31,086 nucleotides of DNA, from positions 1 to 31,086 of the IMG/VR virus record IMGVR_UViG_3300040751_001100; one strand, 5' to 3'. This DNA comes from a virus. This document shows positions 4,106-27,245 of this stretch, piece by piece; within the stretch, counting starts at the first letter, position 1, and each line of letters starts with the position of its first letter. The notes below the pieces were generated by a model. It was not told where the DNA came from. It ran no database searches and worked only from the letters and a program-made list of their open reading frames with translations. Made by a program: the position numbers and the translations under genes.

Positions 4106-5343
4106 GCCGCATATGCGTCATCCCAACTACCCGTCAAACCTGCTACTTCATATTCTGTTACACGATTCTCAAAGAAGTTGGTGTGATCCGCACCATTCAA
4201 TACCCATTCCAACCATGGCAGTGGATTCTCACGCACATGGAAGTTTGACTTCAGACCAAGTTGAAGTAGACGACGATCAGTGATATAACGAATATACTGC
4301 TTCACTTCTTCTTTGCCTAGTCCCTCGATGTCACCCATCTCATATGCAAGGTCAATAAACTTGTCTTCTAGTTCGACTGCCTTACGTGACATTTCATAGA
4401 TCTCACTCTTGAAGTCGTTATCGACAATACGTGGATGCTCTTTACAGAATGAACGGAACAACTTCGCATTTCCTTCTACGTGCATTGACTCATCACGGAT
4501 CGACCATTCGACAACCTTACCCATACCCTTCATCTTGCCGAAACGTTGGAAGTTCAGCAACATTACAAACGATGCAAACAATGCTACACCTTCATTGAAT
4601 ACAGACTTTGCGAGGCAGTGTCCTAAACCACGAACGGTTGACGGGTCTGCTTGCATAATGAAATCAATCTTATCGACCATTTCCGTATACTCAAGAAACT
4701 TATGATACTCTGACTCTGGCAGACCAAGTGTCTCGTTCAACAATGCATATGCACGTTGATGGATTCCTTCACGAGCTGCGAACGATCCTAGCATATTACG
4801 GACTTCGTTGTTCTTAAACTTTGGAATAAACTGGTCATAGTAGTTCTGTCCTACTGCGACATCTGACTGAGTGAACAGACGCAGAATGTTTGTTACATAT
4901 TCTTTCTCTGTTGCAGTCATCTTGCCACCTTTCCAATCGGTCACATCTTCTGATAGATCAATTTCATCTTCGATCCAATGTGCCTTCTCGTGACGTGTCG
5001 TAATCTCGACTGCCCAAGGATAGTGGAATGGTTTGTATGTCTGTGAGAACTTTGTCAGTCCACCAGACTTCTTCTTCAGCAAATCATCACCCTTTGCCAT
5101 GAGATCATCATATCCACCGATACGTTTGTCATCAATAAAGATTTGAGGCATCGAGTTTACTCGACGTTGTTCTGTACCTTTAGTAATTTCTTCCTTGTTA
5201 CCATTCAATTTCTGATAAAAGGCAAGTCGTTGTTCTTCGTCATCTAACACATTTTCTGTGTATGTGAAACCGTGACCAGTTAACCAGTCCTTTGCTTGAA
5301 CGCAAAAAGGACAATTCGACTTTGAATATACAGTTACTTCCAT
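4102..5343 (-). CDS. nrdB: Glutaredoxin-ribonucleotide reductase beta subunit fusion
   Basis: 413 residues in two domains. Residues 1-90 are a glutaredoxin with a C11-PF-C14 redox site and the conserved NSMPQIFID and GGYDDL segments. Residues 100-413 are a class I NrdB (R2): the di-iron ligands are D161, E192, H195, E251, E285 and H288, and the radical Tyr is Y199 in EGIHQRAY, so it looks like a tyrosyl-radical subunit. It pairs with the NrdA encoded just upstream to reduce ribonucleotides, while the fused glutaredoxin probably re-reduces NrdA directly. ATG at 5343 was chosen because AGGGG lies 6 bases upstream and the glutaredoxin fold starts there; an upstream alternative at 5367 would overlap NrdA. 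The stop overlaps the zinc ribbon ATG. Confidence 0.93.
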   Translation of the reverse strand: MEVTVYSKSNCPFCVQAKDWLTGHGFTYTENVLDDEEQRLAFYQKLNGNKEEITKGTEQRRVNSMPQIFIDDKRIGGYDDLMAKGDDLLKKKSGGLTKFSQTYKPFHYPWAVEITTRHEKAHWIEDEIDLSEDVTDWKGGKMTATEKEYVTNILRLFTQSDVAVGQNYYDQFIPKFKNNEVRNMLGSFAAREGIHQRAYALLNETLGLPESEYHKFLEYTEMVDKIDFIMQADPSTVRGLGHCLAKSVFNEGVALFASFVMLLNFQRFGKMKGMGKVVEWSIRDESMHVEGNAKLFRSFCKEHPRIVDNDFKSEIYEMSRKAVELEDKFIDLAYEMGDIEGLGKEEVKQYIRYITDRRLLQLGLKSNFHVRENPLPWLEWVLNGADHTNFFENRVTEYEVAGLTGSWDDAYAA

Positions 5344-5345
5344 AT

Positions 5346-7136: not shown

Positions 7137-7799
7137 TTATGTCAAATCAAGTGCTTGAGGGTAAATCTTTGAGATTGCCTCTGCGCATGCTTTTGCTATT
7201 TCAATATGCTCTTTCTGTGTGCCATTTGATGCACGGAGTTCAATGTAGTGAATCCAAGATCGGATTGTACCATTCATGTAAAGTCTGGATGTTGTGAGTC
7301 CCTCTGGTAACAATGCCCTTGCTTGCTCCTTTGCGATTCCTAACTTGATTGCTCGTTTGTATTCTCTTTCTGCCATCCACATGACTCGACCTTGAATACG
7401 ATACCACTCACGTTCAAGTTCAATGTCATCGACTTCGATAGAGTTCTGACGGTTCTTTTCGTCCTGTAAACGTGCTTCACGTCTGACAAACATCTCATCA
7501 AACTCTTGCTCTGGGTTTGCATACCGTTGCGAGAACTCTTGAAATGAGAACGAACGATGACGCAGAATCTGTCGTGCGATGTCTCGTGTTGTCTCAATCT
7601 CTAAGCAAGCAGATGCCATTTCAAAGGGGGACCAATGCTTGTGCTTTGCCAAGTATTGGAGTAACTTAGAAGAGGTCTCTGAATTGTTTTGATTCGATGG
7701 GTTAGATACCCTAGCACAAAACGCAACCATATCTTGAACATTATTTAATCCTTCAATCTCACCCGCAGGTTGACTATAACTTACTAATCTTACTTTCAA
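7137..7799 (-). CDS. thyX: Flavin-dependent thymidylate synthase
   Basis: 220 residues. The ThyX signature RHRxxSxxxxSxR is seen as RHRSFSFQEFSQR at residues 80-92, and the C-terminal RSWIHYIELR segment supplies dUMP-binding residues. It converts dUMP to dTMP with FAD, NADPH and methylene-tetrahydrofolate. Start choice: a TTG at 7799 overlaps the primase TGA as TTGA and has GGAG 6 bases upstream; a GTG at 7811 in frame is the alternative and would add four residues. Lying between the primase and nrdA it belongs to the nucleotide-supply operon. Confidence 0.94.
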   Translation of the reverse strand: MKVRLVSYSQPAGEIEGLNNVQDMVAFCARVSNPSNQNNSETSSKLLQYLAKHKHWSPFEMASACLEIETTRDIARQILRHRSFSFQEFSQRYANPEQEFDEMFVRREARLQDEKNRQNSIEVDDIELEREWYRIQGRVMWMAEREYKRAIKLGIAKEQARALLPEGLTTSRLYMNGTIRSWIHYIELRASNGTQKEHIEIAKACAEAISKIYPQALDLT

Positions 7800-8797
7800 A
7801 CCTTTCTCCACTCACTTAGTTTTGCTTTTGCCATCAATCCATTGAAGGTGTTATTACTTATAATCGCAGAGATTTCATTTACGTCTCTCCCTGCCATCAC
7901 CATGTCATTTATGTCTTTTTCTTCCACATAATCAGGCCATATCACTACTGACCTTCCGGAATCAATCGCACGTTCTAAACGTTTGATATTCTCCGCACTA
8001 CGAGGTTCGTTGTCCCAACAGTATACAGTATTCTCTGCTGTAAATCTAGCAGAATCGGAACCTGCCATTGCGATGGCATTGGGAATGAACATTGCATCAA
8101 TTGGTCCCTCAACAATCACTACTGACTTACTCCAATCTGCAGACTCTAATCCAAAGATCTTAGGTGCGTCTTCGTCCAACATAATCGTAATATACTTAGG
8201 TTGAGACTTACCGAACGCACGTCCTTGAAACCCAATGAGTTCTTCGTGTTCGTTGATGAACGGAATCACAAGTCTGGGTTCATCCTTCTGTATACTAGGA
8301 AACTTGTTTGGCACCATCGTGTTTACCCATCGATAAAACTTAGGTGCGTAAAATAATTTATAATGTTGAGATTTTGGAATACGTCTTTTTTCGACATATT
8401 TCCTTGCAGGATGATCAATTTTTAATTGAGATATTTTATGGATATCTTTTAATTGATTGGTCCACTTAGGTTTACGAATTTTACGAATGTCCACCTTTTT
8501 ATACTTAGGTTTCTCTTCACGTTTTCGATCACCGAACGTTTCCAACACATACTCTTTATGTAGGTGAGGGTTGACGTACTTAATTAAGTTTGATAGACTA
8601 GCACCTTGCGCACAATTATGGCACTTAAAGATATACTTGCCCTCACGTTGGAAGACGTATCCTCGTGCTTTGGTCTTATCTCTTTGGGAATCACCACAGT
8701 ATGGGCAACGGAAGTTCCATAAGTTGTCATTCTTACGTTTGAACTGACCCAGTTGTGCGGATATTAGGTTTAGGTATTTTGCATCAATATAACTCAT
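7796..8797 (-). CDS. 61: DNA primase, T4 gp61-like
   Basis: 333 residues. An N-terminal zinc finger (C31-PY-C34 and C59-HN-C62) is followed by a TOPRIM-type catalytic domain with VVIVEGPIDAMF (residues 226-237, E230 and D234), WDNE (261-264) and KDINDM (294-299). It synthesises RNA primers for lagging-strand replication, working with the gp41-type helicase encoded in block 1. The length matches T4 gp61. ATG at 8797 is preceded by a perfect sigma70-type promoter whose predicted start is the A of the ATG, so the mRNA may be leaderless. AGGTGA directly before the ATG is too close to act as a normal ribosome binding site. The stop overlaps the thyX start. Confidence 0.93.
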   Translation of the reverse strand: MSYIDAKYLNLISAQLGQFKRKNDNLWNFRCPYCGDSQRDKTKARGYVFQREGKYIFKCHNCAQGASLSNLIKYVNPHLHKEYVLETFGDRKREEKPKYKKVDIRKIRKPKWTNQLKDIHKISQLKIDHPARKYVEKRRIPKSQHYKLFYAPKFYRWVNTMVPNKFPSIQKDEPRLVIPFINEHEELIGFQGRAFGKSQPKYITIMLDEDAPKIFGLESADWSKSVVIVEGPIDAMFIPNAIAMAGSDSARFTAENTVYCWDNEPRSAENIKRLERAIDSGRSVVIWPDYVEEKDINDMVMAGRDVNEISAIISNNTFNGLMAKAKLSEWRKV

Positions 8798-8803
8798 TCA
8801 CCT

Positions 8804-8832
8804 ATTATATATGGGAATAAGTGATATGTCAA
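8804..8832 (-). promoter_or_regulatory. Perfect sigma70 consensus promoter before primase
   Basis: Reading the minus strand, TTGACA (8832-8827) and TATAAT (8809-8804) are separated by exactly 17 bases. Six bases separate the -10 box from the primase ATG, so the usual +1 falls on the A at 8797. The -35 box overlaps the stop codon of the upstream 111-residue gene. It probably drives the whole primase-thyX-nrdA-nrdB-glycan operon early in infection through host RNA polymerase. Confidence 0.85.
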
Positions 8833-9164
8833 GAGAAGAAGGTTGCGAAATCCATCTGTGCAACAAAGAAACCAAGTGCGCATGCACCACCAACAACAAC
8901 CCACTTCCATCGTTCAAGTTCGGAAAGTCTTGAGTCCATCTTCTCGTGATGAGACTTGGACTCTTCTTTCATCTCTTTGATTTCTTTCATGATCTCTTTA
9001 TGAGATAATGCAACTTCTTCGTAGAGTTCGTCTCGCAATGAACCAATCCTTTTGTGTAGGGTTTCGTATTGTTCTTGTGCTTCCACACGTCGAGACTCCA
9101 GAAGTTCGAATAAATTAATATCCGGTTGTTCGTAAACAAACTTTGTTAATTTTTGATCTGCCAT
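8829..9164 (-). CDS. Coiled-coil protein with C-terminal membrane anchor (XhlA-like layout)
   Basis: 111 residues. Residues about 20-85 are charged and heptad-like (for example RIGSLRDELYEEV and ELERWKW), and residues 88-108 form one hydrophobic segment (VVVGGACALGFFVAQ). This layout, a coiled coil leading through an ERWKW turn to a C-terminal membrane segment, resembles XhlA-type haemolysin-associated phage membrane proteins, but I cannot prove homology. It lies alone between the late fibre gene and the early primase operon. An AATAAATA motif lies about 80 bases before its ATG, so late expression is possible. A lysis or membrane role is a guess. Confidence 0.6.
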   Translation of the reverse strand: MADQKLTKFVYEQPDINLFELLESRRVEAQEQYETLHKRIGSLRDELYEEVALSHKEIMKEIKEMKEESKSHHEKMDSRLSELERWKWVVVGGACALGFFVAQMDFATFFS

Positions 9165-9202
9165 GTCTCTATTCCGTAAAGATACCAGTCTGTATCAGAA
9201 TT

Positions 9203-9238
9203 TTGACACTCTCCTCTACTATGCAAGAAGTGTGTCAA
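9203..9238. repeat. Inverted repeat TTGACAC / GTGTCAA
   Basis: In the 90-base gap between the LamG fibre gene and the 111-residue gene, TTGACAC (9203-9209) is repeated in inverted form as GTGTCAA (9232-9238) with 22 bases between. Each arm contains TTGACA, a -35-like box, on opposite strands, but neither has a -10 box 17 bases away. It could be an operator or a hairpin at the late/early boundary; nothing more can be said. Confidence 0.4.
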
Positions 9239-9241
9239 TTG

Positions 9242-9249
9242 TATTTATT
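9242..9249 (-). promoter_or_regulatory. Weak late-promoter-like motif AATAAATA
   Basis: On the minus strand this reads AATAAATA, one base from the T4 late promoter TATAAATA, in the gap upstream of the 111-residue coiled-coil gene. It partly follows the fibre gene stop. It is the weakest of the five such motifs because it differs at the first base and is followed by C rather than G. Confidence 0.35.
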
Positions 9250-9254
9250 AAAAG

Positions 9255-11783
9255 TTATGATTCTGCCTGATATATTCGACCTTGAGTTGAAGTAGGTGGT
9301 GTAAAGTTAGTGGTGTACTTTGCAACACCTTTGAGGATTTGGAGGTTTTCGATGTATCCATTTACAGCATATTCTGCACCACTGGCTTGTACATTTTCAT
9401 AATTTGCTCCAATACATAATGGTAGAGATGTGTCTTTGAGAGTAATACTAATTGTTGCGGACATCTTTGCAACACCGTCAATAAACACCTTAAAATCATT
9501 GCCACTCCTAGTTACTGCAATATGGTGCCAAGTATTTAATGTAAGTCCATGATTAGATGTGTTTAATGTAGTAACAGCATTGGTACCGTCTGATGACATA
9601 TAAAAAACTAAGTTAGATCCATCCAATGCTAAAATAAAAGACCTTCCGACCGATGCCGGATTTCCCCATTTACTTATCCACGAGGTTCCAGCTGACCCTC
9701 TTGCAGTATCATAAACAAACATCTCAATAGTAAAATCGGAGGATCCCAAATCAAAGGTACTATTATCAGACAAAGTCGCATAGTCACTCGACGTACCACC
9801 AAAATACATCGCAGTATCAGCAAACTTCGTCTGAGTAGTAGATGTTGCAGTACTACCAACAAGTGTCAGGGTATTTGTTCCAGTCTTATCAAAGATACCT
9901 GCGTTGTCCATTGGAAGGTACAAGGATGCGTTGGTGTTATTGATTGGTAATGTTGGAACTGTTACTGAGGTAACACCAATAGCCTTAGTTATTTTAAGAT
10001 CAGAAATATAACCTGCCATCCTTCCATTTGCATTGTTTGCATCATCACCAATTCTCCAATCATTAGTAGTTAAATCGTAATTATTTGTGTCTGATACGGA
10101 TAAGACTTGTGACCCATCAACAAAAATTTTAGCAACTCCACTGGATCTTGTTGCAACAACATGGTGCCATTGATTATTAATTATACCTGCTCCAGTACTG
10201 GTTTTAATTTGTCCTGCACTATTGAACAACATAATTTCATTAGAATTAGTATAATATAAACTCCATCCATTAAATGGAGTACCATTTCCACCAACAATAC
10301 TATGGTACGAGGATGTTGGTGTTGCTGTTCTATAAATCCAACACTCAATAGTAAAGTCTCCTGTTCCAAATTCTAATGTCGGGTCTTCAGTCCCTTGAAT
10401 ATAATCTGACGATCCATCAAAATAAGTCGACCCCTTATTCTCTCCCACCGCATACTCAGACTCTTGACCGAATGGGTTGAAGGCGGAGACTTGCGGTAAA
10501 ATACTACCTAAAGTTTCAACAGTAGTTGTTAAAGAACCTCTATTCTTAAATGAATTTCCTGCGTTGAGAAGTAATACTGTATTAGCAGTTACTGACAAGG
10601 GTCCAGTAGGAACAGTAAAGTTTGATGTATATATCGCATCTCCTTTAATTACTCTAAAGTTCGAAATCCAACCCGGCCAAACACCCGCACCATAATTCCC
10701 AACGTCAACAAAATCGACTTCACTAAAATCATAGGTATATGATGCTATCGTTTGTTTAGCAACACCATTAATATACCATACAAGAGTTCCACTGCTTCTA
10801 ACAAAGGCGTGGTGCACCCACTCATTTAATGGATTTGCAGAGTTAGCATAAGTTACTGTAACAGGGCTCTCTGGGTATGGAAAAAGTTCCCATACTTCTG
10901 GAGTTACGGCATTTCTAAGCATAAATCTATAAGCCCCTGAAGTACTATTAAAGTTAAATAAAGCATCTCGATCTACGTTAACATATGATTTACACCAAAG
11001 TTCAATTGTAAAATCTCCCGTGCCAATACCAAGAGATGAAGGAAATGTATGTTTCAGCCTCGTGGTTGTGTCATTTGCACCATCTAAAAATACACTCCAG
11101 TTATCCAGATATGGATGGAACGCAGTTTGGATTGGTGATCCGGTTGCTGTAACAGTATGAGCATTCGTCGAACGATCAACGAACGTACTGTTGTCTAAAC
11201 TATTTGTGCTTGATGTTCCAATAGACAACACGGTCTCATCCCATAATGCTGATATATAACCGACAGTCAAAGTCACAGTTCCGAATGTTTGGTCAATACC
11301 ATCAGTTGCAGTTAGTGTAATATTTGCACTGTAATCTGTTGCAGACAAGTTTTCAACAGTCACTGTACTGTTTGATGTATACAACGTGACGTTTGCTTGG
11401 GAAGTATTGGCAGTCGTTGTCATGGTCACAGTAGGTTCTGGTCCATCTGGGTCCGATGCAGTATAAGTGAAGTTAATTGTATTTCCAGTTGCGCCCAATG
11501 AAATATCCGACACGCTGATACTCAATGATGGTGACTGATTAATCAATGCGACTGAATACCAACCAACACCATTAGTAATAAACAGTGTATTCCCAACTAA
11601 TGCGAACTCACCAAATGTCAAATCTGTTTTAGGTAACGATGCAGTATTCGCATACTGAGTAGCACCACCAGAACCACCAGTTAAAGGTGCACCACCAACC
11701 GTGACACCAGTTCCAGTGATTGTTGTGTTTCCAACTGAGAGGGTGTCACCTGTCAGATTGTTGAAGTTGACCTTTTGTACCAT
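9255..11783 (-). CDS. Fibre/adhesin-like virion protein with three LamG-type domains
   Basis: 842 residues. Residues 1-85 are a phage-structural type N-terminus (VGNTTITGTGVTVGG). Residues about 86-175 form a cadherin/Ig-like beta domain with TASDPDG and TATDG. Then three concanavalin/LamG-like domains follow at about 225-395, 445-610 and 655-830, each with FTIE(L/C/M), a W-H-H strand and a (Y/V)I(N/D)G turn, and each ending in a YISDLKI-like strand. Such domains bind glycans, so this is probably a receptor-binding or decorating protein. It starts inside the end of the lipoprotein gene (38-base overlap) and is the last gene of the late block. The three domains are diverged, so duplication is not recent. 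Confidence 0.8.
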   Translation of the reverse strand: MVQKVNFNNLTGDTLSVGNTTITGTGVTVGGAPLTGGSGGATQYANTASLPKTDLTFGEFALVGNTLFITNGVGWYSVALINQSPSLSISVSDISLGATGNTINFTYTASDPDGPEPTVTMTTTANTSQANVTLYTSNSTVTVENLSATDYSANITLTATDGIDQTFGTVTLTVGYISALWDETVLSIGTSSTNSLDNSTFVDRSTNAHTVTATGSPIQTAFHPYLDNWSVFLDGANDTTTRLKHTFPSSLGIGTGDFTIELWCKSYVNVDRDALFNFNSTSGAYRFMLRNAVTPEVWELFPYPESPVTVTYANSANPLNEWVHHAFVRSSGTLVWYINGVAKQTIASYTYDFSEVDFVDVGNYGAGVWPGWISNFRVIKGDAIYTSNFTVPTGPLSVTANTVLLLNAGNSFKNRGSLTTTVETLGSILPQVSAFNPFGQESEYAVGENKGSTYFDGSSDYIQGTEDPTLEFGTGDFTIECWIYRTATPTSSYHSIVGGNGTPFNGWSLYYTNSNEIMLFNSAGQIKTSTGAGIINNQWHHVVATRSSGVAKIFVDGSQVLSVSDTNNYDLTTNDWRIGDDANNANGRMAGYISDLKITKAIGVTSVTVPTLPINNTNASLYLPMDNAGIFDKTGTNTLTLVGSTATSTTQTKFADTAMYFGGTSSDYATLSDNSTFDLGSSDFTIEMFVYDTARGSAGTSWISKWGNPASVGRSFILALDGSNLVFYMSSDGTNAVTTLNTSNHGLTLNTWHHIAVTRSGNDFKVFIDGVAKMSATISITLKDTSLPLCIGANYENVQASGAEYAVNGYIENLQILKGVAKYTTNFTPPTSTQGRIYQAES

Positions 11784-14775: not shown

Positions 14776-14783
14776 TATTTATG
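14776..14783 (-). promoter_or_regulatory. Late-promoter-like motif CATAAATA
   Basis: The minus strand reads CATAAATAG, one base from the T4 late -10 element TATAAATA. It overlaps the stop of the 835-residue gene and lies 27 bases before the ATG of the small virion protein gene, a spacing that fits a short leader containing its AGGAG ribosome binding site. It would start the unit 14749-9255. Confidence 0.65.
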
Positions 14784-17286
14784 CGTTTTTCTTTGCCATT
14801 TTGACAGCAGTGCGATTCATTACTTCTATTGCACGGTCACCATACTTTTTCACAAATTGTTCTTTTTTCTTTTCCATAGACTTTAAAATTTCGTCTTTCT
14901 TTTCTTTTTCAGAGTCGGACATATCTTCGTCTAAAGATGGGTTCACATCGACTTTAGTCTGCTTTCCAGATTTGCCGACCTTCTTTTGCTTTTCATCTTT
15001 ATCTTCTTCTCCTTCGTTATCATTTTTGTCTATTGCTTTAGATACTGCCTTACGCTTATTGTGTAGATACTCATCCGAGTCATCTGTATCACCGTCATTA
15101 TCGATGTCTTTGTCTTTGCGGTCCTTGAACTTTTTCTTCAATGCTTTAGGTTGAACCTTGTCCATACCTTCACCGTCATCGGACTTATCGTTTGTATTGT
15201 CTTCTTTGACTTTCTTTGCTTCACCAAAGACAGACAGCATAACTGCTTCTTCCAATGTCATAGTGTTTTCCTCTACTTTTTCTTCGTCGATGCGAGTTAC
15301 TGATGCTTTTGATAAATCCAAGTTGCCCATTGAAGGTCTTGCTTTCTTGACTGCCTCACCTGCATTACGTGCAGTTCCTCTCCATACCTTGGCACCAACT
15401 TTGACTTGCCACTTCACGAATGCTTCGTCCAAAGATTCTTCTTGCAAACTATCAAGAATATCGCCCAACATATCATTTCGATAATCCTTAGACCTGTTCA
15501 TCATATTCAATGCCTGTTGCATACCCAACTTTTTCAACACATCAGGGATCTTCTTAATAACATCTGCTTCTTTTGCATTAGATTTGACACCCATCTTTTT
15601 CAGTGCTTTCGCAACTTGCATTGCTGTATCTTCTTTCTCAGTCAGTTCAACTTCTTCTTTGACAGGAACCATTGGGATGTTTGTCTGTGCGAGTCCCATT
15701 TTGGTTCTAAGCATGGTCACGTCAATCCTTTTACCCTTCAAGACAACAGTGCGTCCCTTCCTTGAATACTCAATGTTTTTCTCTTTGGCAGTCCTTTCCA
15801 GTTTACTTGCCATGTCGGAAGTAACATTCGGAACAGTAAAAGATACCATTGGAGACTCTTCCATTTCAAATGATTCGGTTATGTATGGTGCTAAGTCTTT
15901 TTTGAGATAATCCGCATCATAGTTATCCTTAGCAAGCATTTTTATCAATGCTGCCATGTCTTCTTTAGACATAACACTTGGAATGTGGTCGCTAACTTCT
16001 TCCTCAGGGGGTGTTCGGTATCCCGATTTGTTTAGTGTTTTGAGGCGTTCTTTTTTGATTGTATCGTAGATTTTACGAACTTTATTTTTATTGACTGCCT
16101 CTTCCAACTCTTCGTTCTTCAACTTATCGATCTTTCTTTGGAGTGCAAACTTCTTCATCTTTACTGAAGATGTGTTACCACTGATGCGATCCAACATTTT
16201 TTCTAAGTCAGCGATTTGCTGTTCTTTAGATTTTGCTTCGTCCATTTCAACTGACTCTTTATACATGTTGAGTTCGTACTTCTTATTGTCTAGGTTAGCA
16301 ACTTGAATCTGAACACCCTTCTTGCCATCCTTGCCTTTTAAACGATAAGAGTTTGTCTTACCTGCAGATGGTTTGCGAGGACCAGATGCTACTTTGTCAT
16401 CGATCTCTTTTGGATCAATCTCAATACCGAACTTCTTTTTTGCATAGTCATACGCATGCTTCATTGCAGACGAAAAGTCCTTATGATATAAGTCGTATCC
16501 AGAACCACCTGACTTCGATGGATCTCTTGCTTCGTCCATAACCTCTTCAAACATTTCATCAACACTTTCCTTGACATCTTTCTTTTTGCCATGGTCACCA
16601 AGAGTGGCATGCATATCCTTTGCTTTTTCGTGTAGACCAGATAACTTATTCTGCATCCATTCCGGAAATTCTTTTCCACCCTTAACATGCTCTGCTACTT
16701 CACGACCAACATATTGAATAAATTCTGCTTGCTTTGATGCCATTGAACTTTCGTCTGGTGACGCAGGTTCTTCATCTTCTTTTGCTTCATTAACATCTTC
16801 TTTAAACACATAGAAAACTCGACCAACCTGTTTAACTCGACCACCGTTCTTCTTAGCAAAGTTGTCTGCTTGAGTGCGGTTTGCGAATGTCTTGTCAAAA
16901 ACTTCTTTACCACGAACCATTGCTTCCTCAAGTTCATCAAATTCTTCTAATTCTTCGATAGTGTAGTCTTCGATCTTAAATCCACCACCTTGAACCGATA
17001 CCTTGATGCCGTTGTTACGCATAACACTAACAATCTTCTCACGAGGTGAAGTGTCTAAGTCCATCAGATCACGAGCAAATTTTGCCGTGACACGAGGTGC
17101 TTTCTTATTTGCGATTGCAGACATGCGGTTTGCAAATGCTAAGAAATCGTTCTTATCCATGCCCCCCTTTGTCTTTGCATACTGTGTCAGTTCTTTTGCC
17201 GCACCTGCATAGTCTGCTTTAGAGACATCGAATGGAGGGTCATTGCGTTTTTCATTTAACATTCTAATTGTGTTTGCTAGGTTCAT
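14779..17286 (-). CDS. Large modular virion-type protein, possible capsid-internal polyprotein
   Basis: 835 residues. The sequence is a chain of small basic modules separated by acidic linkers ending in (L/M/F/V)-x-E-A: LEEA 119-122, VNEA 165-168, MDEA 250-253, MDEA 348-351, LEEA 394-397, LDEA 619-622, LEEA 678-681, FGEA 687-690, plus related FEMEES 473-478 and VELTEK 546-551. The N-terminus MNLANTIRMLNE resembles a T4 capsid targeting sequence ending in L-x-E. Residues 727-738 (D-I-D-N-D-G-D spacing) form an EF-hand/dockerin-like loop. The C-terminus is lysine-rich. T4 prohead protease cuts after (L/I)-x-E, so I infer, without proof, that this is a packaged and processed polyprotein. AAGGA lies 8 bases before the ATG; it follows the 759-residue gene by 29 bases. 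Confidence 0.7.
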   Translation of the reverse strand: MNLANTIRMLNEKRNDPPFDVSKADYAGAAKELTQYAKTKGGMDKNDFLAFANRMSAIANKKAPRVTAKFARDLMDLDTSPREKIVSVMRNNGIKVSVQGGGFKIEDYTIEELEEFDELEEAMVRGKEVFDKTFANRTQADNFAKKNGGRVKQVGRVFYVFKEDVNEAKEDEEPASPDESSMASKQAEFIQYVGREVAEHVKGGKEFPEWMQNKLSGLHEKAKDMHATLGDHGKKKDVKESVDEMFEEVMDEARDPSKSGGSGYDLYHKDFSSAMKHAYDYAKKKFGIEIDPKEIDDKVASGPRKPSAGKTNSYRLKGKDGKKGVQIQVANLDNKKYELNMYKESVEMDEAKSKEQQIADLEKMLDRISGNTSSVKMKKFALQRKIDKLKNEELEEAVNKNKVRKIYDTIKKERLKTLNKSGYRTPPEEEVSDHIPSVMSKEDMAALIKMLAKDNYDADYLKKDLAPYITESFEMEESPMVSFTVPNVTSDMASKLERTAKEKNIEYSRKGRTVVLKGKRIDVTMLRTKMGLAQTNIPMVPVKEEVELTEKEDTAMQVAKALKKMGVKSNAKEADVIKKIPDVLKKLGMQQALNMMNRSKDYRNDMLGDILDSLQEESLDEAFVKWQVKVGAKVWRGTARNAGEAVKKARPSMGNLDLSKASVTRIDEEKVEENTMTLEEAVMLSVFGEAKKVKEDNTNDKSDDGEGMDKVQPKALKKKFKDRKDKDIDNDGDTDDSDEYLHNKRKAVSKAIDKNDNEGEEDKDEKQKKVGKSGKQTKVDVNPSLDEDMSDSEKEKKDEILKSMEKKKEQFVKKYGDRAIEVMNRTAVKMAKKNA

Positions 17287-17315
17287 CTCTGTGTTCCTTA
17301 GTTAATTTAAATCTG

Positions 17316-19595
17316 TTACCAATTCTTACAAGACCAATAACGAGCTTTCCATTTTGGTCCGGGGTTATCGCAATTGTGACGTGCTCTAAATGCTTTTCTT
17401 CTTGCAGGGTCATCTCTCTTGATTTCCATGTTTGGATCTCCAAAAGAAACTTTTACCACATTGCCTTTGTCATTTTTGACATAGACATAAAACTTCTTCG
17501 ACCCACCACGGACAGGTTTGTTAAGTGTGACCTTTCTCTTTTGACCATCTGCTTCAAGAATAGTCACTTCTTCTTCAATGAGTTCTTCGTCACAATCATC
17601 ACAACAAGATTCCATCGGGGTGTCTTTCTTGTATTTGTTTTTGAGTTTATCAGTTCCCCACTCACCTGCACCACCTTCTTCTGCAACCATCTTTGCAAGG
17701 TCTCTCGCATCAACACCTTTGTATTGCTTTGCAATTTGTTGTGCATAGTATTCTACACTATGGTTGAGTTTACCTTCTTTCTTTTTGCGATCCAACACTT
17801 GACGCAAAACTTCTTTTGCATACTTGTAAGTGCGAGGTTTGATCAAGTATTTATTCATTAGTTTAGTGAACCAATCCTCATTAATTTGCTCGACCTCTTC
17901 ATTTTTTTCTTTTTTAGAGATTGCAATCGCTGCTTGTTGTTTTGCGTTTATTGCTTCTTTGGTTTCTGGCACACAATCAGGAACCATCTTGTCCCCTTTC
18001 TTCTTCATGCCGACTTGCTTATAACCGTCCCAACACTTTTCGTCGAGTTCAACAGATTCTTTCTTTACACCCTTTGCGAGGTCTTTATCTGCACCACCCC
18101 AAGTTCCTTTGCCCTTGGTGATGAATGAGTTGACTCGTGCAAATCCCCACTGCTGTTGTGTTGCACCGGGACGATGACCTGTCTTCCACGCAGCCATGCC
18201 ACGATCATAAACTTTCTTTAATGTGCCATATGGAATACCAGACTTTTCTGACTTCTTCATCAAAGATGCTTTCGCATCCTCTGTCAACTCGAACTCTTCA
18301 GTCTTGATATTTTTTGCACGAGTATCTTGTGTACGTGCACGATCTAACATGCGATCATGCTTTTCTTTATCTTGTTCTTTTTCTTTATTGATAGCATTAC
18401 GTGCGTTTTTTACGTTCTCTGCTTCTCCGTACATATCACGGTATTTGCGTGTGTGTTTGCTTGGTTTCGTTTTCGCATCAGCATCACCCGGTGCAGGTTT
18501 ATACGCCTTCGGATCATCATCCGATGCCTTCTTACCTGCCTTAAAGGACGCATCTCGTTTCTCCTTAGTGGATTTCGAAAGATCTTTAAAGTATTTCTTT
18601 GGTTGCGTACCTTCTCTATCCTTGATGGTAGAGTCCTGTGCGACCTTTGCTTCAAAGAGTGCGTTGATATCTAATTCTTCTGATTTCGTTGAACGTGCCA
18701 TTTTTAATCTTTCACCCTCGTCCTTTCTAACTTTAGGCAATAATTTCTTTGCTAGTTTTGAAATAACAGCAGATTTTTTCTGCACTAATTTATCAATAGT
18801 AATTTTTTCTGCAGTACTCAGGTCTCTATAATTTTTTCCACGATCACCTGCAACTTTTGCACGGACAACTTCTCGTGCTTTTTTCATTGCTCTCTTTTTT
18901 ATGGTATCACTATCTGCTCTGCGTTTTGCTTTAACTTTTCTCAATCTTGCAAGTTTTGGTGCAAGTCGTTTCATTCTTCTTCCAATGTCTCTACGTTGAG
19001 AAATCGACAATGGTTTGCGATCTTCTTCCATCTCTACCTCTTCTCTGATGGCATTATTAATAATGTCGTAAACCTTCTTTGCGTCACTCTGAATCTTAGG
19101 AGGCAGACCAGTTTTGAATGTGTCAAAGTCACCTGCCTTTGCAAGTGCTCTTAATTTAGATGCAGACATTCCTTCAACACCTTCTGCATCAGGATCTCTT
19201 TCACCTGCTGATACAACTTCAATTGAATCGAATGTATAATCTTTTCCGTTATACTTTGTAAGAAGTTTTTTAAATTCAGAAACTCGATCAGATCCGACAA
19301 CAAGGATTAAATCGGTATATCCACTCTTTTCAAGTTCTTGCGCAATTTGGATAATAGTTTTGCTTTGGGATACTTTGATGATCGATCCGAATGCTTTTGT
19401 TGCAAACTTGATTTTTTCTCTATAACTGAGTGGATCTTTTTTATTTTTAGGATCAGTTTGGACTGAGGTGTGTGACAGATACACTCTTGCGTCTGCCCGA
19501 TTTGATTTAGCAACGGTATTTACTTTGTCCACCAGTTTCTGGTGACCAATAGTCGGAGGGTTCATGCGTCCAAATGTGAACACGATTTTTTTCAT
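17316..19595 (-). CDS. Nucleotidyltransferase fused to multiple phage internal-protein-like modules
   Basis: 759 residues. Residues 1-180 are a cytidylyltransferase/NMN-adenylyltransferase-type enzyme: FTFGRMNPPTIGH (6-18) with the TxGH nucleotide motif, VVGSDR (99-104) and GMSASKLR (142-149). The rest is a chain of modules: a very basic one (about 193-302), KYFKDLSK...KYRDMYGEA (about 334-392), a GMAAWKTGHRPG module (about 441-512), CWDGYKQVGMKKKGDKMVPDC (521-541), a helical module (574-637), and a C-terminal KFYVYVKNDKGN...WSCKNW module (about 685-759). Linkers have (L/I)-x-E sites: LFEA 313-316, LTED 437-440, LDEK 517-520, INED 571-574, ILEA 679-682. Start at ATG 19595 has AAGGA 7 bases upstream. 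The enzyme may be packaged with the modules; the reaction substrate is unknown. Confidence 0.75.
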   Translation of the reverse strand: MKKIVFTFGRMNPPTIGHQKLVDKVNTVAKSNRADARVYLSHTSVQTDPKNKKDPLSYREKIKFATKAFGSIIKVSQSKTIIQIAQELEKSGYTDLILVVGSDRVSEFKKLLTKYNGKDYTFDSIEVVSAGERDPDAEGVEGMSASKLRALAKAGDFDTFKTGLPPKIQSDAKKVYDIINNAIREEVEMEEDRKPLSISQRRDIGRRMKRLAPKLARLRKVKAKRRADSDTIKKRAMKKAREVVRAKVAGDRGKNYRDLSTAEKITIDKLVQKKSAVISKLAKKLLPKVRKDEGERLKMARSTKSEELDINALFEAKVAQDSTIKDREGTQPKKYFKDLSKSTKEKRDASFKAGKKASDDDPKAYKPAPGDADAKTKPSKHTRKYRDMYGEAENVKNARNAINKEKEQDKEKHDRMLDRARTQDTRAKNIKTEEFELTEDAKASLMKKSEKSGIPYGTLKKVYDRGMAAWKTGHRPGATQQQWGFARVNSFITKGKGTWGGADKDLAKGVKKESVELDEKCWDGYKQVGMKKKGDKMVPDCVPETKEAINAKQQAAIAISKKEKNEEVEQINEDWFTKLMNKYLIKPRTYKYAKEVLRQVLDRKKKEGKLNHSVEYYAQQIAKQYKGVDARDLAKMVAEEGGAGEWGTDKLKNKYKKDTPMESCCDDCDEELIEEEVTILEADGQKRKVTLNKPVRGGSKKFYVYVKNDKGNVVKVSFGDPNMEIKRDDPARRKAFRARHNCDNPGPKWKARYWSCKNW

Positions 19596-19971: not shown

Positions 19972-22242
19972 TTAAACTCCTGTCAAAATCATAGTGTTTG
20001 CACTAACTGCTTTTCCAATTTTTAAAGATGCTACATTGTAAGTTGCATCTATTGTTCCATTAGCATGTACGTAATAGTCCGATGATGGACTTAGACTAGA
20101 AAACGCACTTGACACGGATCCTCTTGGTGTAACTGTTACAGTTGCTCCATTTGCCGCACTACTTTCTGCAACACCGATAACCAAATTAGCATCAAAATTA
20201 GTAGATCTAGTATCTGCTTCTAAACTAAAAATATTAATTCCTCTGGCATAATTGTTATTGCTATCATACCCATTAATGGCATATCTATTATTTCCTAGGT
20301 AAGCTCCAATCGTAGCAAATCCAAATCCAGCAACACCTGTTATTCCTATTCGATTTTCGGTGTTTGCGACATATGGTGCTGTAGTCTTATCAAGTTCGAT
20401 ATCAAATCTTGAAAGTCCACCATTAACGGCATCAGTATATATCATAGTTCCAGTATTAATTGTATACGGACTCATATATAATTGACTATAACCCGCTCTG
20501 ATCGTGGTTCCATAACTTCTTGCGTAAGTGACATCCCACTGAGTTACTGGGAGAGTGGTACTATTTAATTTTGCTATTCCTTGATACAAAACATCATTTG
20601 TATAAGAAGCATATGAAGTAAAAGTGAAATGACAAATCTCTGGATGAAATGGATCCCAAGTAAGATAAGGGTTTGCCATATACTTATTATCTTGTTGAGG
20701 ACCAACAACACCAGCGTTCATTAATGTTACTCCACCAGCTCCATTCATGCGTCCGGGTCTTATCCACATATCTGACTTTCGATAACTTCCGTTATTCCTA
20801 AACCCTAGTGCAAATACACTTTCACCTTGATTGTCTACAGTCCACAGTGGACTAAATGCCACAGGATAGTAATAGTGAGGTCCAGAAGTATCAACATAGT
20901 TCTGTGTCAGTGCACTGACCGTGTTCGTAGTAAAATCAAATTTTCCTGATACAAGTATAAGATTGGTTCCTGCTTGGAACATCCATATAAAACCATCTCG
21001 ATCACTTAAATCAAAATGATTTCCTTGGAGTGCAACCCATGGAAAATAAGTTTGTGAATACAAAACAACTTCATTAGAATAATTGACAAGATTATCTGAA
21101 CCAATAGTCACTTGTCTTAGACAAGGATAACCACTAGCATTACTATAAAAAAGTAATATTTTGCTTGGATCAGTTTTCGAACGTTTTGCGGCTATACTGC
21201 CGTGTGTTCCTGTAGTACCTCGTGCGGCAGTGAACGTAAAGGTTCCATCTGATGCAAGTGTACATGACGTACCTTGAAGCTTTCTCTGGGTACCAGAATT
21301 GTCATCCCAAAATATATAAAATTTACTTGGATCACTTGGATCAGGAACTATTTCGCCAGCATAGTAAGCATTAACGTTAGTTGATCCGGGGCTGCTGTGG
21401 AAGTTTTGAATGAAACTAGTAGATCCATATGGATAATCAAATTCTTCAACTCCTCCAGAACCTATAATTGGATATACTGCACCATTAGTAGCAATTTGAA
21501 CTGCATCTCCTAATGAAAATACTCCATTAGCAGTAAACTCTAGAGTTGTTCCACCTCCACCACTTGATTCTGCAACGGTTGCAATATATGCATTGGTATT
21601 TGCAACAAACGATTGGAAATCGGTGTTGGTAGTGTATGTGCTTGTTAAATATGCATTAGATGCCTTTGTGCCGATGAGAGCAGTAGTTGTCGTAGCAAAG
21701 TTAGCATCATCTCCTAATGCTGATGCCAGTTCGTCTAATGTGTTTAAAGTTGTAGGAGCACTATTAACCAATGACGCAACTGATGTGTCCACATAAGATT
21801 CAGTTGCAAATCCGTAACTAGAAACGTTGGCAACTTGTAAGTACTGGCTCTGTGCATCTGATACACTAGCAACATAAGCATTAGTATTTGCAAGAACTGT
21901 TTGAAGTTCTGCATTAGAGATTCCCGGGTGTGAACCAATTTTAGTTCCTGCAGGAAGTGCAATAGTACCACTTTCAGTTGAAGTGATTGATGCAGAACCT
22001 AATACTAATGTATTACCTGACAAATATAGATCTTTGAATGCTTTATCTGCAGTACCTAAATCATAGGTAACATTTGCAGAGGGAACTAAATTTTGGTCAA
22101 TTGCGTCTGCAGATACACCATCAATAGTTGTAGTTGCAACCACCGACCATTTATTCTTTGTAGAGTTGTACTGATAAGTCAACCCATCGTATGAGTAAGT
22201 ATCACCGTTTGAGGGACTTGAAGGAAATGAAATACTTGCCAT
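19972..22242 (-). CDS. Tail fibre-like protein
   Basis: 756 residues. N-terminus SPSNGDTYSYDGLTYQYNSTKNKWSVV-type is the short beta unit seen at the start of many phage fibres. Residues about 110-230 contain repeats such as ANTNAYVASV / ANTNAYIATV and the widespread fibre motif SAPTTLNTLDELASALGDD. The C-terminal two thirds (about 250-700) is beta-rich with DPSDPSKFYIFWDD, KTDPSKILLFYS and DPFHPEICHFTF at intervals, suggesting a beta-propeller-like receptor-binding head. The last 50 residues are VTVTPRGSVSSAF-like. AGGAT lies 5 bases before the ATG and a TATAAATA motif lies 26 bases upstream. Propeller assignment is inference. Confidence 0.75.
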   Translation of the reverse strand: MASISFPSSPSNGDTYSYDGLTYQYNSTKNKWSVVATTTIDGVSADAIDQNLVPSANVTYDLGTADKAFKDLYLSGNTLVLGSASITSTESGTIALPAGTKIGSHPGISNAELQTVLANTNAYVASVSDAQSQYLQVANVSSYGFATESYVDTSVASLVNSAPTTLNTLDELASALGDDANFATTTTALIGTKASNAYLTSTYTTNTDFQSFVANTNAYIATVAESSGGGGTTLEFTANGVFSLGDAVQIATNGAVYPIIGSGGVEEFDYPYGSTSFIQNFHSSPGSTNVNAYYAGEIVPDPSDPSKFYIFWDDNSGTQRKLQGTSCTLASDGTFTFTAARGTTGTHGSIAAKRSKTDPSKILLFYSNASGYPCLRQVTIGSDNLVNYSNEVVLYSQTYFPWVALQGNHFDLSDRDGFIWMFQAGTNLILVSGKFDFTTNTVSALTQNYVDTSGPHYYYPVAFSPLWTVDNQGESVFALGFRNNGSYRKSDMWIRPGRMNGAGGVTLMNAGVVGPQQDNKYMANPYLTWDPFHPEICHFTFTSYASYTNDVLYQGIAKLNSTTLPVTQWDVTYARSYGTTIRAGYSQLYMSPYTINTGTMIYTDAVNGGLSRFDIELDKTTAPYVANTENRIGITGVAGFGFATIGAYLGNNRYAINGYDSNNNYARGINIFSLEADTRSTNFDANLVIGVAESSAANGATVTVTPRGSVSSAFSSLSPSSDYYVHANGTIDATYNVASLKIGKAVSANTMILTGV

Positions 22243-22277: not shown

Positions 22278-23504
22278 TTATTTTTGCCAACCTTTGATGA
22301 CATCATCGGAAAAATTAGCACGTGAAAACTCTAATCGATTTACAAGTTTGACTGCATCACCATTATTATTGATTGCGACATATCCTTCAGGGGATGTCAC
22401 TTCGAATCCATTCGCAGTTTTCAAAAATGTTCCGATACTTGATGCTTTGTCCATCTTCTTTATGATCAACTCCTTCGCATCGATGATCTGATTCATCAGT
22501 GTGAAGATCTTCACCAAATCTGCTGAATTGGAGGAGCCAAAGAATTGCATCATTTCTTTCTTTTTCTGTATCCACGGTGCCTTTCCCTTTTCTGTTTTCT
22601 TCGATTCAATTTGCTTATTGTAATATTGAATAACATAGTTCACGAGACCACGCACGTGGTTTCTTGGGTTCGCAATCTTCTCACCCGCACGAACTTTCGT
22701 GTTGAAGTGAGTCTTAATTCTATCTTTAATATCTTTGTTATCAGCAATAGCATTCAATGTATTTGCACTGATACCACGAAATGTCTTACCCGCAGATGAT
22801 AGTAGAGATGTGACTGCGGCAGTTTCTTTTGCAGTCATTGTTGCAGAACCTGACACGTCTTTGTAGGTTGCATCAGTGTGCCATACTGATTTTGATTTCT
22901 TGAGTTTGGTGCTAATGTCTTGACCGAACGATGCTTTCATAGACTCAAAAGAATCTCCTCTATAAACAGTATGCCATACGATCCCAATACTAGACTTGCG
23001 TATAGTCCGACCCAGATCGCTATTGTAAGGCACAGCATATACGATAGTGTTTGGATGAAACGTGATAACTTTCTCACCGTCGATTACCTCCGTTTTGAGA
23101 GTATCGTTTGAATAGAGAAAGTCTCCCTGAATGACTCCCTCAATTCCTAATGCGGGTAGATTTTTGAGTGCAAGTTTAAACTTGTCTGCAAGGTCACCAG
23201 AGATATCTGCATCTATCTCAGATTCTGTCTTGTAGATTTTGGGGTTGACATTAAAGACACCTTTCTTTGCAATGAAAAACTTTCCATCACGTGGATCAGT
23301 CCCTGCAAAAATAGCAGGAGCACCATCCCACTTAACAGTGGTATTAACAGGACGAGCAGTACTGCCAGATAACATATCCCTGAGACTTTGTAAAAAATTG
23401 ATTGCATCCCTCGCACCCTTGACACCAAAGTTGAGCACCGAATCTTCTAGGTGCTCCATGTGTGTGTTCTTTTCTTCTGTTAAATATGTGGTGAACTTTT
23501 TCAT
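22278..23504 (-). CDS. Ligase-like nucleotidyltransferase family phage protein with capsid-targeting-like N-terminus
   Basis: 408 residues. VKWDGAPAIFAG (residues 57-68) contains K58-x-D60-G61, the covalent-lysine motif I of DNA/RNA ligases and capping enzymes; GIEGVIQGDFLY further on could match a later acidic motif and RKSSIGIVWHTVY a motif V-like strand. I recognise the family as a conserved phage protein (DUF6267-type, name from memory). The first ten residues MKKFTTYLTE end in L-T-E and match the shape of the T4 internal-protein capsid targeting sequence. ATG at 23504 overlaps the upstream stop as ATGA; an ATG three codons earlier is the alternative. It may be a packaged enzyme acting on nucleic acids; activity is unproven. 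Confidence 0.65.
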   Translation of the reverse strand: MKKFTTYLTEEKNTHMEHLEDSVLNFGVKGARDAINFLQSLRDMLSGSTARPVNTTVKWDGAPAIFAGTDPRDGKFFIAKKGVFNVNPKIYKTESEIDADISGDLADKFKLALKNLPALGIEGVIQGDFLYSNDTLKTEVIDGEKVITFHPNTIVYAVPYNSDLGRTIRKSSIGIVWHTVYRGDSFESMKASFGQDISTKLKKSKSVWHTDATYKDVSGSATMTAKETAAVTSLLSSAGKTFRGISANTLNAIADNKDIKDRIKTHFNTKVRAGEKIANPRNHVRGLVNYVIQYYNKQIESKKTEKGKAPWIQKKKEMMQFFGSSNSADLVKIFTLMNQIIDAKELIIKKMDKASSIGTFLKTANGFEVTSPEGYVAINNNGDAVKLVNRLEFSRANFSDDVIKGWQK

Positions 23505-24943
23505 CGTTTCCATGTTACCTTTGGATCTTTGCGCATAGTAGGTTTCTTGTTTGTAAATTCTACCACCTTTCGGTAACTACTGACAAATAAAGATTTTATC
23601 TTTTTAAAGATAGCAAGAACAAATCGTTTATAAAATAATTTGAGTTTATCTTTAATTCTCCCAAGAATTCCTTCATTGAGAACGTCAGCAGAGAACGGAT
23701 CGACACCATCTTCTGCAAATTCTTTTAGGGTGTCGTCGAACGATTCACGCATCAGTTCCTTTGGAATTTTAGGTTTCTTAGGAACCGTTACTCGCAAATT
23801 GGTATATGGTTTAGAACCACCCCCACCAGTCTTAAAATTGATCTGAAATTCTACTTGTCTCGCAACTTCAGTAACAAGTTTATCATCAATAATTTTATAT
23901 GATGCTTTGCCAGTGATATCGTCGAATACCATAATATGAGTTGCTTTTGCAATTGCATCGGCAAACTTATTGTTTCCAGTCATCGCTTCAAGAACGATTG
24001 CCTTTCTTGCTTCCAATGAAGAAAATATATTTCGGATTGCATCTTGCATTGCGGTATGCTCTTGCAAAATTTTCGAAACTTGAGTGTGTACTTCTGACTC
24101 GACACCTGCTTTGATTTCACGTTTATAGTCAGTAACATTCTTTCCTTTCTCGACTGGAAGTTTAGTAAACTTATTTGCAACATCTTCTGTCAATTGATTG
24201 AATGCGGAATCAAACTCTTTTGTTTTGATCTTGCTTGGAATTTGTTTGTATGCAAACTCTAGTGTTGCAAGTGCTTCGGCAACACCACCAGACATCAATT
24301 GTGAACCACCTTCTTTCTTCAGAGAAATCTTTTGATTACCAATATACATATCAGTCTTTGGTGTTTTTGTTGGTGTAGGTGCACTAGAACCAGTTGCGTC
24401 TAAGAAGTATTGATCCCATTCTTTTGTCAGAGATACATTATCAGAACCAAAGTGTTTCATCACACCTTTAGGATTTTTACCAAATGCATCTTCAACTAGT
24501 TTATGACCAGTATCCATTACACCATCATAAATGCTTTTCCAACTTGCTTCTGCGAGTTGAAGTGCTTCATCCTTGCCAACTTTCTGTGATGCCATATTGT
24601 ACGCAACACAAATCACAACTTCCCAATCTGCACCCTTTAATGTTCCACCACTGGAATTGACAGAACCTTGTCCTTGATCTAAAACTTTTTTCGATACCTT
24701 GACACCGTTTTTAGTTTTCCATGAATCGAGATCATACGAACGGTCTCTAACTTTGATGGAGTTAGGTTTCTTACCAGTGTCTACTGCGAATGGGATATCT
24801 ATAGACTTCTTTAACTCACGAAACAATGACTTCAACAAATCTTTATCTATAGGTGTGTCTAGACTGTCGATTTGCTTTTCGTCATCGATGCCTGTGGTGA
24901 ATCCCTCACTGAGGATCTTTGTGCTAAATTTTTCAAGTGGCAT
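23501..24943 (-). CDS. Conserved virion-type protein with capsid-targeting-like N-terminus
   Basis: 480 residues. N-terminus MPLEKFSTKILSEG has L11-x-E13-G14, and near the C-terminus VLNEG (421-425) repeats the pattern, both fitting T4 prohead-protease-type sites. Between lie a domain with WEVVICVAYNMASQ, a conserved-looking region DAFGKNPKGVMKHFGSDNV and a GGGGSKPYTNLRVTVP strand. The C-terminal 55 residues are strongly basic with amphipathic KLFYKRFVLAIFKKIKSLF. I do not recognise a function. AAGGA lies 6 bases before the ATG and a GATAAATA motif lies upstream. It is translationally coupled to the ligase-like gene, so the two may act together inside the capsid. Confidence 0.62.
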   Translation of the reverse strand: MPLEKFSTKILSEGFTTGIDDEKQIDSLDTPIDKDLLKSLFRELKKSIDIPFAVDTGKKPNSIKVRDRSYDLDSWKTKNGVKVSKKVLDQGQGSVNSSGGTLKGADWEVVICVAYNMASQKVGKDEALQLAEASWKSIYDGVMDTGHKLVEDAFGKNPKGVMKHFGSDNVSLTKEWDQYFLDATGSSAPTPTKTPKTDMYIGNQKISLKKEGGSQLMSGGVAEALATLEFAYKQIPSKIKTKEFDSAFNQLTEDVANKFTKLPVEKGKNVTDYKREIKAGVESEVHTQVSKILQEHTAMQDAIRNIFSSLEARKAIVLEAMTGNNKFADAIAKATHIMVFDDITGKASYKIIDDKLVTEVARQVEFQINFKTGGGGSKPYTNLRVTVPKKPKIPKELMRESFDDTLKEFAEDGVDPFSADVLNEGILGRIKDKLKLFYKRFVLAIFKKIKSLFVSSYRKVVEFTNKKPTMRKDPKVTWKR

Positions 24944-26844: not shown

Positions 26845-26873
26845 AGTATCTCACATTTTTATATCTGTGTCAA
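26845..26873 (-). promoter_or_regulatory. Promoter with GTGAGATACT extended -10
   Basis: The minus strand has TTGACA (26873-26868), 17 bases, then GATACT (26850-26845) preceded by GTGA. Predicted +1 is near 26838, giving a leader of about 85 bases before the 407-residue gene. It overlaps the 3' end of the metallopeptidase gene. The same GTGMGATACT box recurs at 27444 and 30463. Confidence 0.55.
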
Positions 26874-27245
26874 AACTTTTGCGTATTTTTTTACAAGTAT
26901 TTTTTCCATTGAATACGCTTCTATTTCGTGAGGAGCATTTTCGTATTCCTCTTGACTACTATACCCTAACTTTTCATTGATGTCAAGTTCTCCGCGTGCG
27001 TACTGTTTTACGTGCGTCATCTCGTGCGCGATGGTACCAAGAAATTCGATGTCATCCAATTCTTCATTGATCTCAATGACAAACTCTCGTTTGCTGACTG
27101 CAAGACAGTAACCACATGCATCACTTTCCGTGATATCAACTGTAATATCTAGAGTTCTCATACGTGGCATTAATTCAGCAATACAGAAATGGACAATCTC
27201 CTCTGCCCAATCTCCCCGATCACCCCAAGCACTTACAATGTTCAT
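26859..27245 (-). CDS. Putative zinc metallopeptidase (HExxH)
   Basis: 128 residues. IAHEMTHVKQY (residues 72-82) is a classic HExxH zinc site with H74, E75 and H78, and EIEAYSME (107-114) supplies a likely third ligand, E109, as in SprT-like/phage metallopeptidase-domain proteins. An N-terminal part with CIAELMPRMR and DACGYCLAV precedes it. No signal peptide, so it would act in the cytoplasm, perhaps on DNA-bound or host proteins. Its ATG overlaps the stop of the 55-residue gene as TAATG. Length is short, close to a minimal minigluzincin. Confidence 0.72.
   Translation of the reverse strand: MNIVSAWGDRGDWAEEIVHFCIAELMPRMRTLDITVDITESDACGYCLAVSKREFVIEINEELDDIEFLGTIAHEMTHVKQYARGELDINEKLGYSSQEEYENAPHEIEAYSMEKILVKKYAKVLTQI

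Follow-up and report, generated by a model that had tools for sequence, protein, structure and literature searches.

The adjacent proteins A and B are probably polyprotein forms of the T4-type internal head proteins, packaged into the head and cut by the prohead protease gp21. The window analysed here, a virus record of 31,086 bases, covers part of the genome of a T4-like marine phage of the Kyanoviridae type; it was placed with the T4-like marine phages because genes for a helicase, UvsX, a primase and ribonucleotide reductase are present in it. The two adjacent open reading frames (ORFs) recognised in the first-pass annotation (14779-17286, 835 residues; 17316-19595, 759 residues) proved to be real and lie on the minus strand, and the closest named relatives of protein B are those of Pelagibacter phage HTVC008M, Methylophilales phage Melnitz and phage C48C1. 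The interpretation that these proteins are packaged into the prohead and cut into many small products was supported. A was divided at 12 candidate sites into 13 segments, and B was divided at seven candidate sites into eight segments, as listed below (a slash after E marks a candidate cleavage position).

14779-17286, minus strand: protein A, 835 residues, modular, with the N-terminal leader MNLANTIRMLNE/
17251-17286, minus strand: A1, the leader MNLANTIRMLNE/ (in relatives MNLANTIRMMAE/ and MNLMNTIREMAE/)
16924-17250, minus strand: module A2 (KRNDPPFDVSKADY...), ending LEE/A
16786-16923, minus strand: module A3, ending VNE/A
16531-16785, minus strand: module A4, ending MDE/A; elsewhere single as MKSFVDFMSE/APED...
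16237-16530, minus strand: module A5 (YDLYHKDFSSAMKHAYDYAKKK...), ending SVEMDE/A
16099-16236, minus strand: segment A6, ending LEE/A
15856-16098, minus strand: module A7, ending MEE/S
15637-15855, minus strand: segment A8, ending LTE/K
15424-15636, minus strand: module A9, ending LDE/A
15247-15423, minus strand: module A10, ending LEE/A
15220-15246, minus strand: spacer A11, between the sites LEE/A and FGE/A
14926-15219, minus strand: module A12, with the EF-hand-like loop DKDIDNDGDTDDSD, ending LDE/D
14782-14925, minus strand: module A13, C-terminal and helical, the last module of A
17316-19595, minus strand: protein B, 759 residues, modular, net charge +59
19023-19595, minus strand: module B1, a PPAT/NMNAT-fold nucleotidyltransferase, ending MEE/D
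18651-19022, minus strand: module B2, Lys/Arg-rich (+25), ending LFE/A
18423-18650, minus strand: module B3, ending YGE/A, which is not a strict [LIMF]xE
18279-18422, minus strand: segment B4, ending LTE/D
18039-18278, minus strand: module B5, the second half of DUF5824, ending SVELDE/K; elsewhere single as MIKFKAYINE/DATA...
17877-18038, minus strand: module B6 (CWDGYKQVGMKKKGDKMVPDCVP), ending INE/D
17553-17876, minus strand: module B7, ending ILE/A
17319-17552, minus strand: module B8, basic (+14), the last module of B

The nucleotidyltransferase that had been proposed among the modules was recovered as B1 (phrog_3041, E 7e-89). B1 has the CTP_transf_like fold and the sequence signature of the HIGH superfamily nucleotidyltransferases; its best Foldseek matches were PPAT and NadD (E 6e-5), and its match to PF01467 (8.5e-4) was slightly under the family cut-off. 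Beyond B1, A and B match almost no curated family apart from DUF5824, which in Pfam consists of modules B3 and B5 joined, and a few PHROGs of unknown function. No gp22 or gp67 family was among the Pfam and PHROG matches of A and B, and a PDB sequence search with a profile of B gave zero matches. The earlier description of the modules as mostly basic held for B (net +59) and failed for A (net +3, segments from -10 to +4).

Many of the single-module proteins in T4-like phages start with M-K-x-F-x-x-[YF]-[LI]-x-E followed by the module, as in MKTFKQYITE/A, MKSFVDFMSE/A and MIKFKAYINE/D. A strict leader pattern was present in 42 of the 126 single-module proteins, while others had longer leaders still ending in LxE and some had none. 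When the T4 genes were read, IPII started with MKTYQEFIAE/ARV, IPIII with MKTYQEFIAE/ASV and IPI with MKTFKEFTSTTTPVSTITE/ATL (MKTFKEF...ITE/A). In IPIII, residues 1-10 form the capsid-targeting sequence, and T4 gp21 cuts after (L/I)-x-E (PMC9026906). Judged from the residues, the stand-alone leader MKTFKQYITE/A is nearly the same as the T4 capsid-targeting sequence MKTYQEFIAE/A. Leaders of the capsid-targeting type occur in many stand-alone homologues and in neighbours of A and B in the window. B2 is a separate gene in Melnitz, starting with MGQMKKFSELTSELIE/RKA, and in other phages too it is a leader-bearing gene by itself; the Melnitz nucleotidyltransferase starts with MKKFSEIIE/ARG. In the window, the leader of A is divergent (IRMLNE/K), and B, and with it B1, has no N-terminal leader. 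The two neighbours in the same cluster are as follows.

22278-23513, minus strand: DUF6267 protein, with the leader METMKKFTTYLTE/
23501-24943, minus strand: weakly virion-structural-like protein, with the leader MPLEKFSTKILSE/

Several other features of these neighbours and of the rest of the window were observed. In the DUF6267 protein, KWDGAPAIF and GVIQGDFL resemble the nucleotidyl-transfer motifs of DNA/RNA ligases; a search with this protein gave no convincing match, and a single profile, phrog_455, covers both DUF6267 and the nucleotidyltransferase of B. The protein at 23501-24943 and its equivalents in two relatives (L015 and L018) keep KTPKTDMYIGNQKISLK, which by eye could be a candidate PD-(D/E)xK nuclease motif. 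A tail-fibre-like gene (19972-22242) lies between those for the DUF6267 protein and B; in relatives this interval holds different genes or is empty, and the position is an insertion spot. At 4102-5367, an N-terminal thioredoxin/glutaredoxin-like domain is fused to the small subunit of ribonucleotide reductase.

The candidate cut sites of the (L/I/M/F)-x-E/ type total 19 (12 in A and seven in B). All 12 in A fit [LIMFV]xE, as do six of the seven in B, the exception being B391 (YGE). At least fifteen acidic linkers, most often of the form (L/I/M/F)-x-E-A, had been described; [LIMF]xEA itself was found in just 9 of the 19, the remaining 10 having K, D or S after E, or another P3 residue. The linkers were indeed acidic as claimed, the 12-mers that end at the sites having a net charge of -0.25 per residue, whereas the value over all 12-mers was 0.00 in A and +0.07 in B. 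[LIMF]xEA occurred seven times in A against 1.1 expected, and none of 3000 shuffles reached that count. In B alone, it occurred twice against 0.7 expected (p 0.15), so the motif count was no better than chance and the sites in B rest on position and homology.

The sites were also evaluated at 107 non-redundant joints of 32 module pairs across relatives, with shuffles of the same joints as the null. [LIMF]xEA was found 33 times versus 7.0 ± 2.5 in the shuffles, and [LI]xE was found 146 times versus 61 ± 7. Controls with the wrong spacing showed no excess at the joints ([LIMF]E, 86 versus 105 expected; [LIMF]xxE, 106 versus 98), nor did the control with D in place of E ([LIMF]xD, 47 versus 55 expected); the spacing controls rule out that the linkers are mere acidic composition. 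Module interiors were depleted of both [LI]xE (41 versus 65 ± 7) and [LIMF]xEA (1 versus 10). At the N-terminal edges of modules, [LIMFV]xE was present in 305 of 354 cases, compared with 7.6% of interior windows; A4, A13 and B6 have a high interior background, with many interior matches in A4 and A13, and make up a minor share of the N-edge weight. A site was found at the N-terminal edges of B2, B3, B5 and B8 in 83-98% of homologues and at those of B4 and A12 in just 45-60% of cases. In the AlphaFold model of B (the Melnitz row was left out of the alignment), five of the seven sites fall within dips of pLDDT<50 that comprise 18% of residues (p = 0.003), a placement that also supports the sites of B; the model of A (five sequences, mean pLDDT 44, three compact pieces) was too poor to judge linkers. 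Neither a significant dip in BLAST coverage depth nor a significant pile-up of alignment ends was seen near the sites. Initial linker regular expressions for HTVC008M and Melnitz were too loose for ranking proteins.

The modules occur both alone and reshuffled in other phages. Two IMG/VR scans yielded 135 loci with relatives, and a search of their 6,038 ORFs with the separate modules revealed 74 distinct module orders, among them permutations, combinations of modules from A with modules from B, and many proteins of just one module. Swaps of order were seen between B5-B6 and B6-B5 and between A2-A5 and A5-A2. In close relatives, the linker of A5 is kept and unrelated modules follow it. A search with module B6 by itself hit parts of nine PHROG families (E below 0.001), and the module is present in many phage families. 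A tblastn search of the phage collection with A12 gave no match, although HTVC008M and Melnitz contain recognisable copies, which the search setting missed. In the alignment of A, module A2 is preceded by the leader MLNE/K in the window and by the internal linker EEVKLDE/KKDEPPFDVSKADY in a relative (L108); leader and internal linker are thus interchangeable. Large modular proteins near the terminase genes of two cyanophages, S-SZBM1_194 (L006, 28253-30376) and S-RIM8 gp147 (L193, 1058-2833), have the internal leader-like sites FITYREFIAE/G and ISFQQFQE/K, respectively, and the pattern is therefore wider than this cluster.

A search for a gp21-type protease, which the proposed processing calls for, succeeded in relatives, while in the phage itself gp21 lies outside the 31-kb window, which is too short to hold the gene. 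gp21 (PF03420) was detected in HTVC008M, Melnitz and C48C1 and is annotated in S-CREM2 and S-SZBM1, thus in all five named relatives checked. It was also present in eight of the 17 relative contigs, the closest metagenomic relative among them; several of these contigs are fragments. In this relative, gp21 has YISE/A and gp23 has LLGE/A at the expected positions, following the same rule, and by inference from T4 both would be cleaved there.

Module B8 provides a natural control, since it also occurs in small pelagiphages and roseophages; ten records were compared. Flavobacterium phage immuto is the sole record of the ten with detectable gp21 (PF03420), and its B8 protein has a long leader ending LDE/GEYRG. 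In eight records, in which PF03420 was undetected, a short B8 protein starts at or near the module without a leader (e.g. MAKYQGRTVKLNKP). The leaderless form typically starts M/AKYQG..., which minus Met equals the N-terminus that the predicted cut gives in T4-like phages (e.g. ITE/AEYQG). In the tenth record, Roseobacter phage CRP-6 (L183, 1435-2124), B8 is joined to a second domain, whose match to the prohead protease family S78 is sub-threshold (E 8e-4), and this fusion links B8 to head assembly outside the T4-like phages. The leader is likewise absent from the single copy of B5 in the small pelagiphage HTVC202P. The B8 comparison is strong but not conclusive support for an association between leader and gp21, because these phages differ otherwise and a divergent protease could escape detection.

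Homologues of the nucleotidyltransferase are present in purified virions of S-CREM2 (PMC10665884) and S-SZBM1 (PMC9146016), and it has likewise been reported in virions of other cyanophages. S-CREM2 gp160 and S-SZBM1_139, both detected by mass spectrometry (MS), each contain a B6-type module. This virion evidence thus concerns homologues of B1 and B6-bearing proteins in other phages rather than full-length A and B, and the MS papers report protein identifications, not cleavage sites (PMC10665884, PMC9146016). Among the non-T4-structural proteins of S-CREM2, the leader was found in 7 of the 27 detected by MS versus 6 of the 152 undetected (p = 8e-4), and its carriers include a SAM hydrolase, a kinase and Cas9; the authors of that study caution that abundant proteins may co-purify (PMC10665884). 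The DUF6267 protein of S-SZBM1, which has no leader, is absent from the virion list, and the leader-bearing S-SZBM1_140 is present. S-SZBM1_194, with its internal leader-like site, is absent from the MS list of S-SZBM1. The Cas9-like protein of S-CREM2 (L162, OR473000), gp12 (7704-10313, minus strand), has been reported in purified virions and bears the leader RFASFMAE/A, which suggests that Cas9 may be packaged in the head of S-CREM2; the SAM hydrolase gp6 and the kinase gp14 have capsid-targeting-like leaders too.

Based on these results, the processing of A and B may be envisaged as described below. A and B would enter the prohead core, and a gp21-family prohead protease would cut each (L/I/M/F/V)-x-E linker after its glutamate. 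A would give roughly twelve small products and B roughly eight, among which would be the nucleotidyltransferase B1 and the basic B2 and B8. After packaging, the products would stay together with the DNA and probably accompany it into the cell. Each linker would do the same job as the leader cut site of a stand-alone internal protein, and modules could therefore be joined, swapped or split there. For the leaderless B, we would guess that internal linkers target the protein or that its modules bind the core. We infer that every linker is cut, that the head retains the products and that they are ejected into the cell. Points that count against gp21-cut polyproteins are the missing leader and chance-level motif count of B, the omission of S-SZBM1_194 from the MS list, M or F at P3 (wider than the L/I of the T4 rule), the weak edges of B4 and A12, the negative BLAST-depth result and the location of the protease gene outside the window.

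A and B might instead be sacrificial core proteins, which gp21 cuts into fragments that serve prohead assembly and mostly leave, none being delivered except perhaps the nucleotidyltransferase. In T4, gp22 and gp67 are processed to several fragments, most of which leave (PMC9026906); in the closest relative, the linker-like PVELDE occurs within gp22; and gp22 and gp21, the expected substrates, have the highest motif z-scores in S-CREM2. Such a role is nevertheless unlikely, as the modules are folded units conserved in diverse phages, including some without detectable gp21, the nucleotidyltransferase and B6-bearing proteins occur in mature virions, and the architecture turns over too fast for a shape-determining scaffold.

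It appears still less likely that A and B stay uncut, as beads on a string, and act as modular head or DNA-condensing proteins whose flexible acidic linkers bind the scaffold. In the AlphaFold model of B, low-confidence linkers lie between folded modules. Acidic and hydrophobic residues alternate in the linkers, so that the reversed motif Ex[LIMF] was enriched at the joints as well (156 versus 101), which would suit uncut chains. However, the enrichment peaks at the protease spacing, [LIMF]E, [LIMF]xxE and [LIMF]xD are not enriched and interiors are depleted; moreover, the same site ends the T4-type leader in stand-alone copies, and B8 has no site where gp21 is undetected.

That A and B are polyvalent proteins cut by another protease is very improbable: cleavage of polyvalent proteins has been ascribed to zincin domains (PMC5512222) and a gene for a small zincin-like protein (26859-27245, with IAHEMTH) lies within or near the same cluster, but no peptidase domain, zincin-like ones included, turned up in A or B in the Pfam and PHROG scans, an HExxH scan of the syntenic clusters of HTVC008M, Melnitz, S-CREM2 and S-SZBM1 found no zincin equivalent, and the site matches the gp21 rule.

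If A and B are indeed gp21-cut polyproteins, ocean viruses of an abundant group make protease-processed cargo polyproteins. Protease-processed polyproteins are a familiar strategy of RNA viruses and retroviruses. For tailed phages, the literature searched, which was thin on subscription journals, offered no account of cargo polyproteins among the internal head proteins, and for cyanophages and pelagiphages it described neither capsid-targeting leaders nor cargo polyproteins. The leader M-K-x-F-x-x-[YF]-[LI]-x-E and the linkers [LIMFV]-x-E/ would together be a simple predictor of the marine phage proteins that travel in the head, and this rule fits the published virion list of S-CREM2. The spread of these proteins over many unrelated 'unknown' database families would be explained as well, since such families would be one set of modules strung together in shuffled order. 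More broadly, we lean slightly towards the view that marine T4-like phages carry head-cargo cassettes, in which short genes for internal proteins are joined, separated and rearranged at gp21 sites and each phage has its own injected set. If so, the leader motif would predict injected cargo, including the Cas9 and SAM hydrolase of S-CREM2 virions, and the prohead protease would double as a polyprotein-processing enzyme.

Among known systems, the T4 internal proteins IPI, IPII, IPIII and Alt resemble the proteins described here in a near-identical leader, which here is that of stand-alone homologues, in a predicted cut between [LI]xE and A that would give small products, and in the protease family, which is present in relatives; this likeness is drawn from leaders, cut sites and protease family. 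The T4 proteins differ in having one cargo per gene and one N-terminal cut, whereas A and B consist of chained, reshuffled modules with internal sites. T4 gp22 and gp67 resemble A and B in having several gp21 sites per chain, and gp22 of the close relative has its linker-like PVELDE, but they are assembly scaffold whose fragments mostly leave, unlike the folded, widely exchanged modules and the enzyme of A and B. Polyvalent proteins (Iyer et al. 2017, PMC5512222) are likewise multi-domain proteins with disparate activities and pervasive domain shuffling, and are predicted to be packaged, processed and injected; gp21 goes unmentioned in that paper. They often, not universally, carry a zincin peptidase domain (PMC5512222), while A and B have none and bear head-protease sites instead; because a peptidase domain is absent, A and B were not filed as polyvalent proteins. 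The giant phages phiKZ and SPN3US also have a gp21-type prohead protease (e.g. gp245) that cuts several head proteins after a short x-E motif. In SPN3US, however, the sites are A-x-E and cutting at 13 of 14 takes off an N-terminal propeptide (PMC10052503), and no string of interchangeable cargo has been described for either phage, whereas A and B appear to be chains of exchangeable modules joined at head-protease sites.
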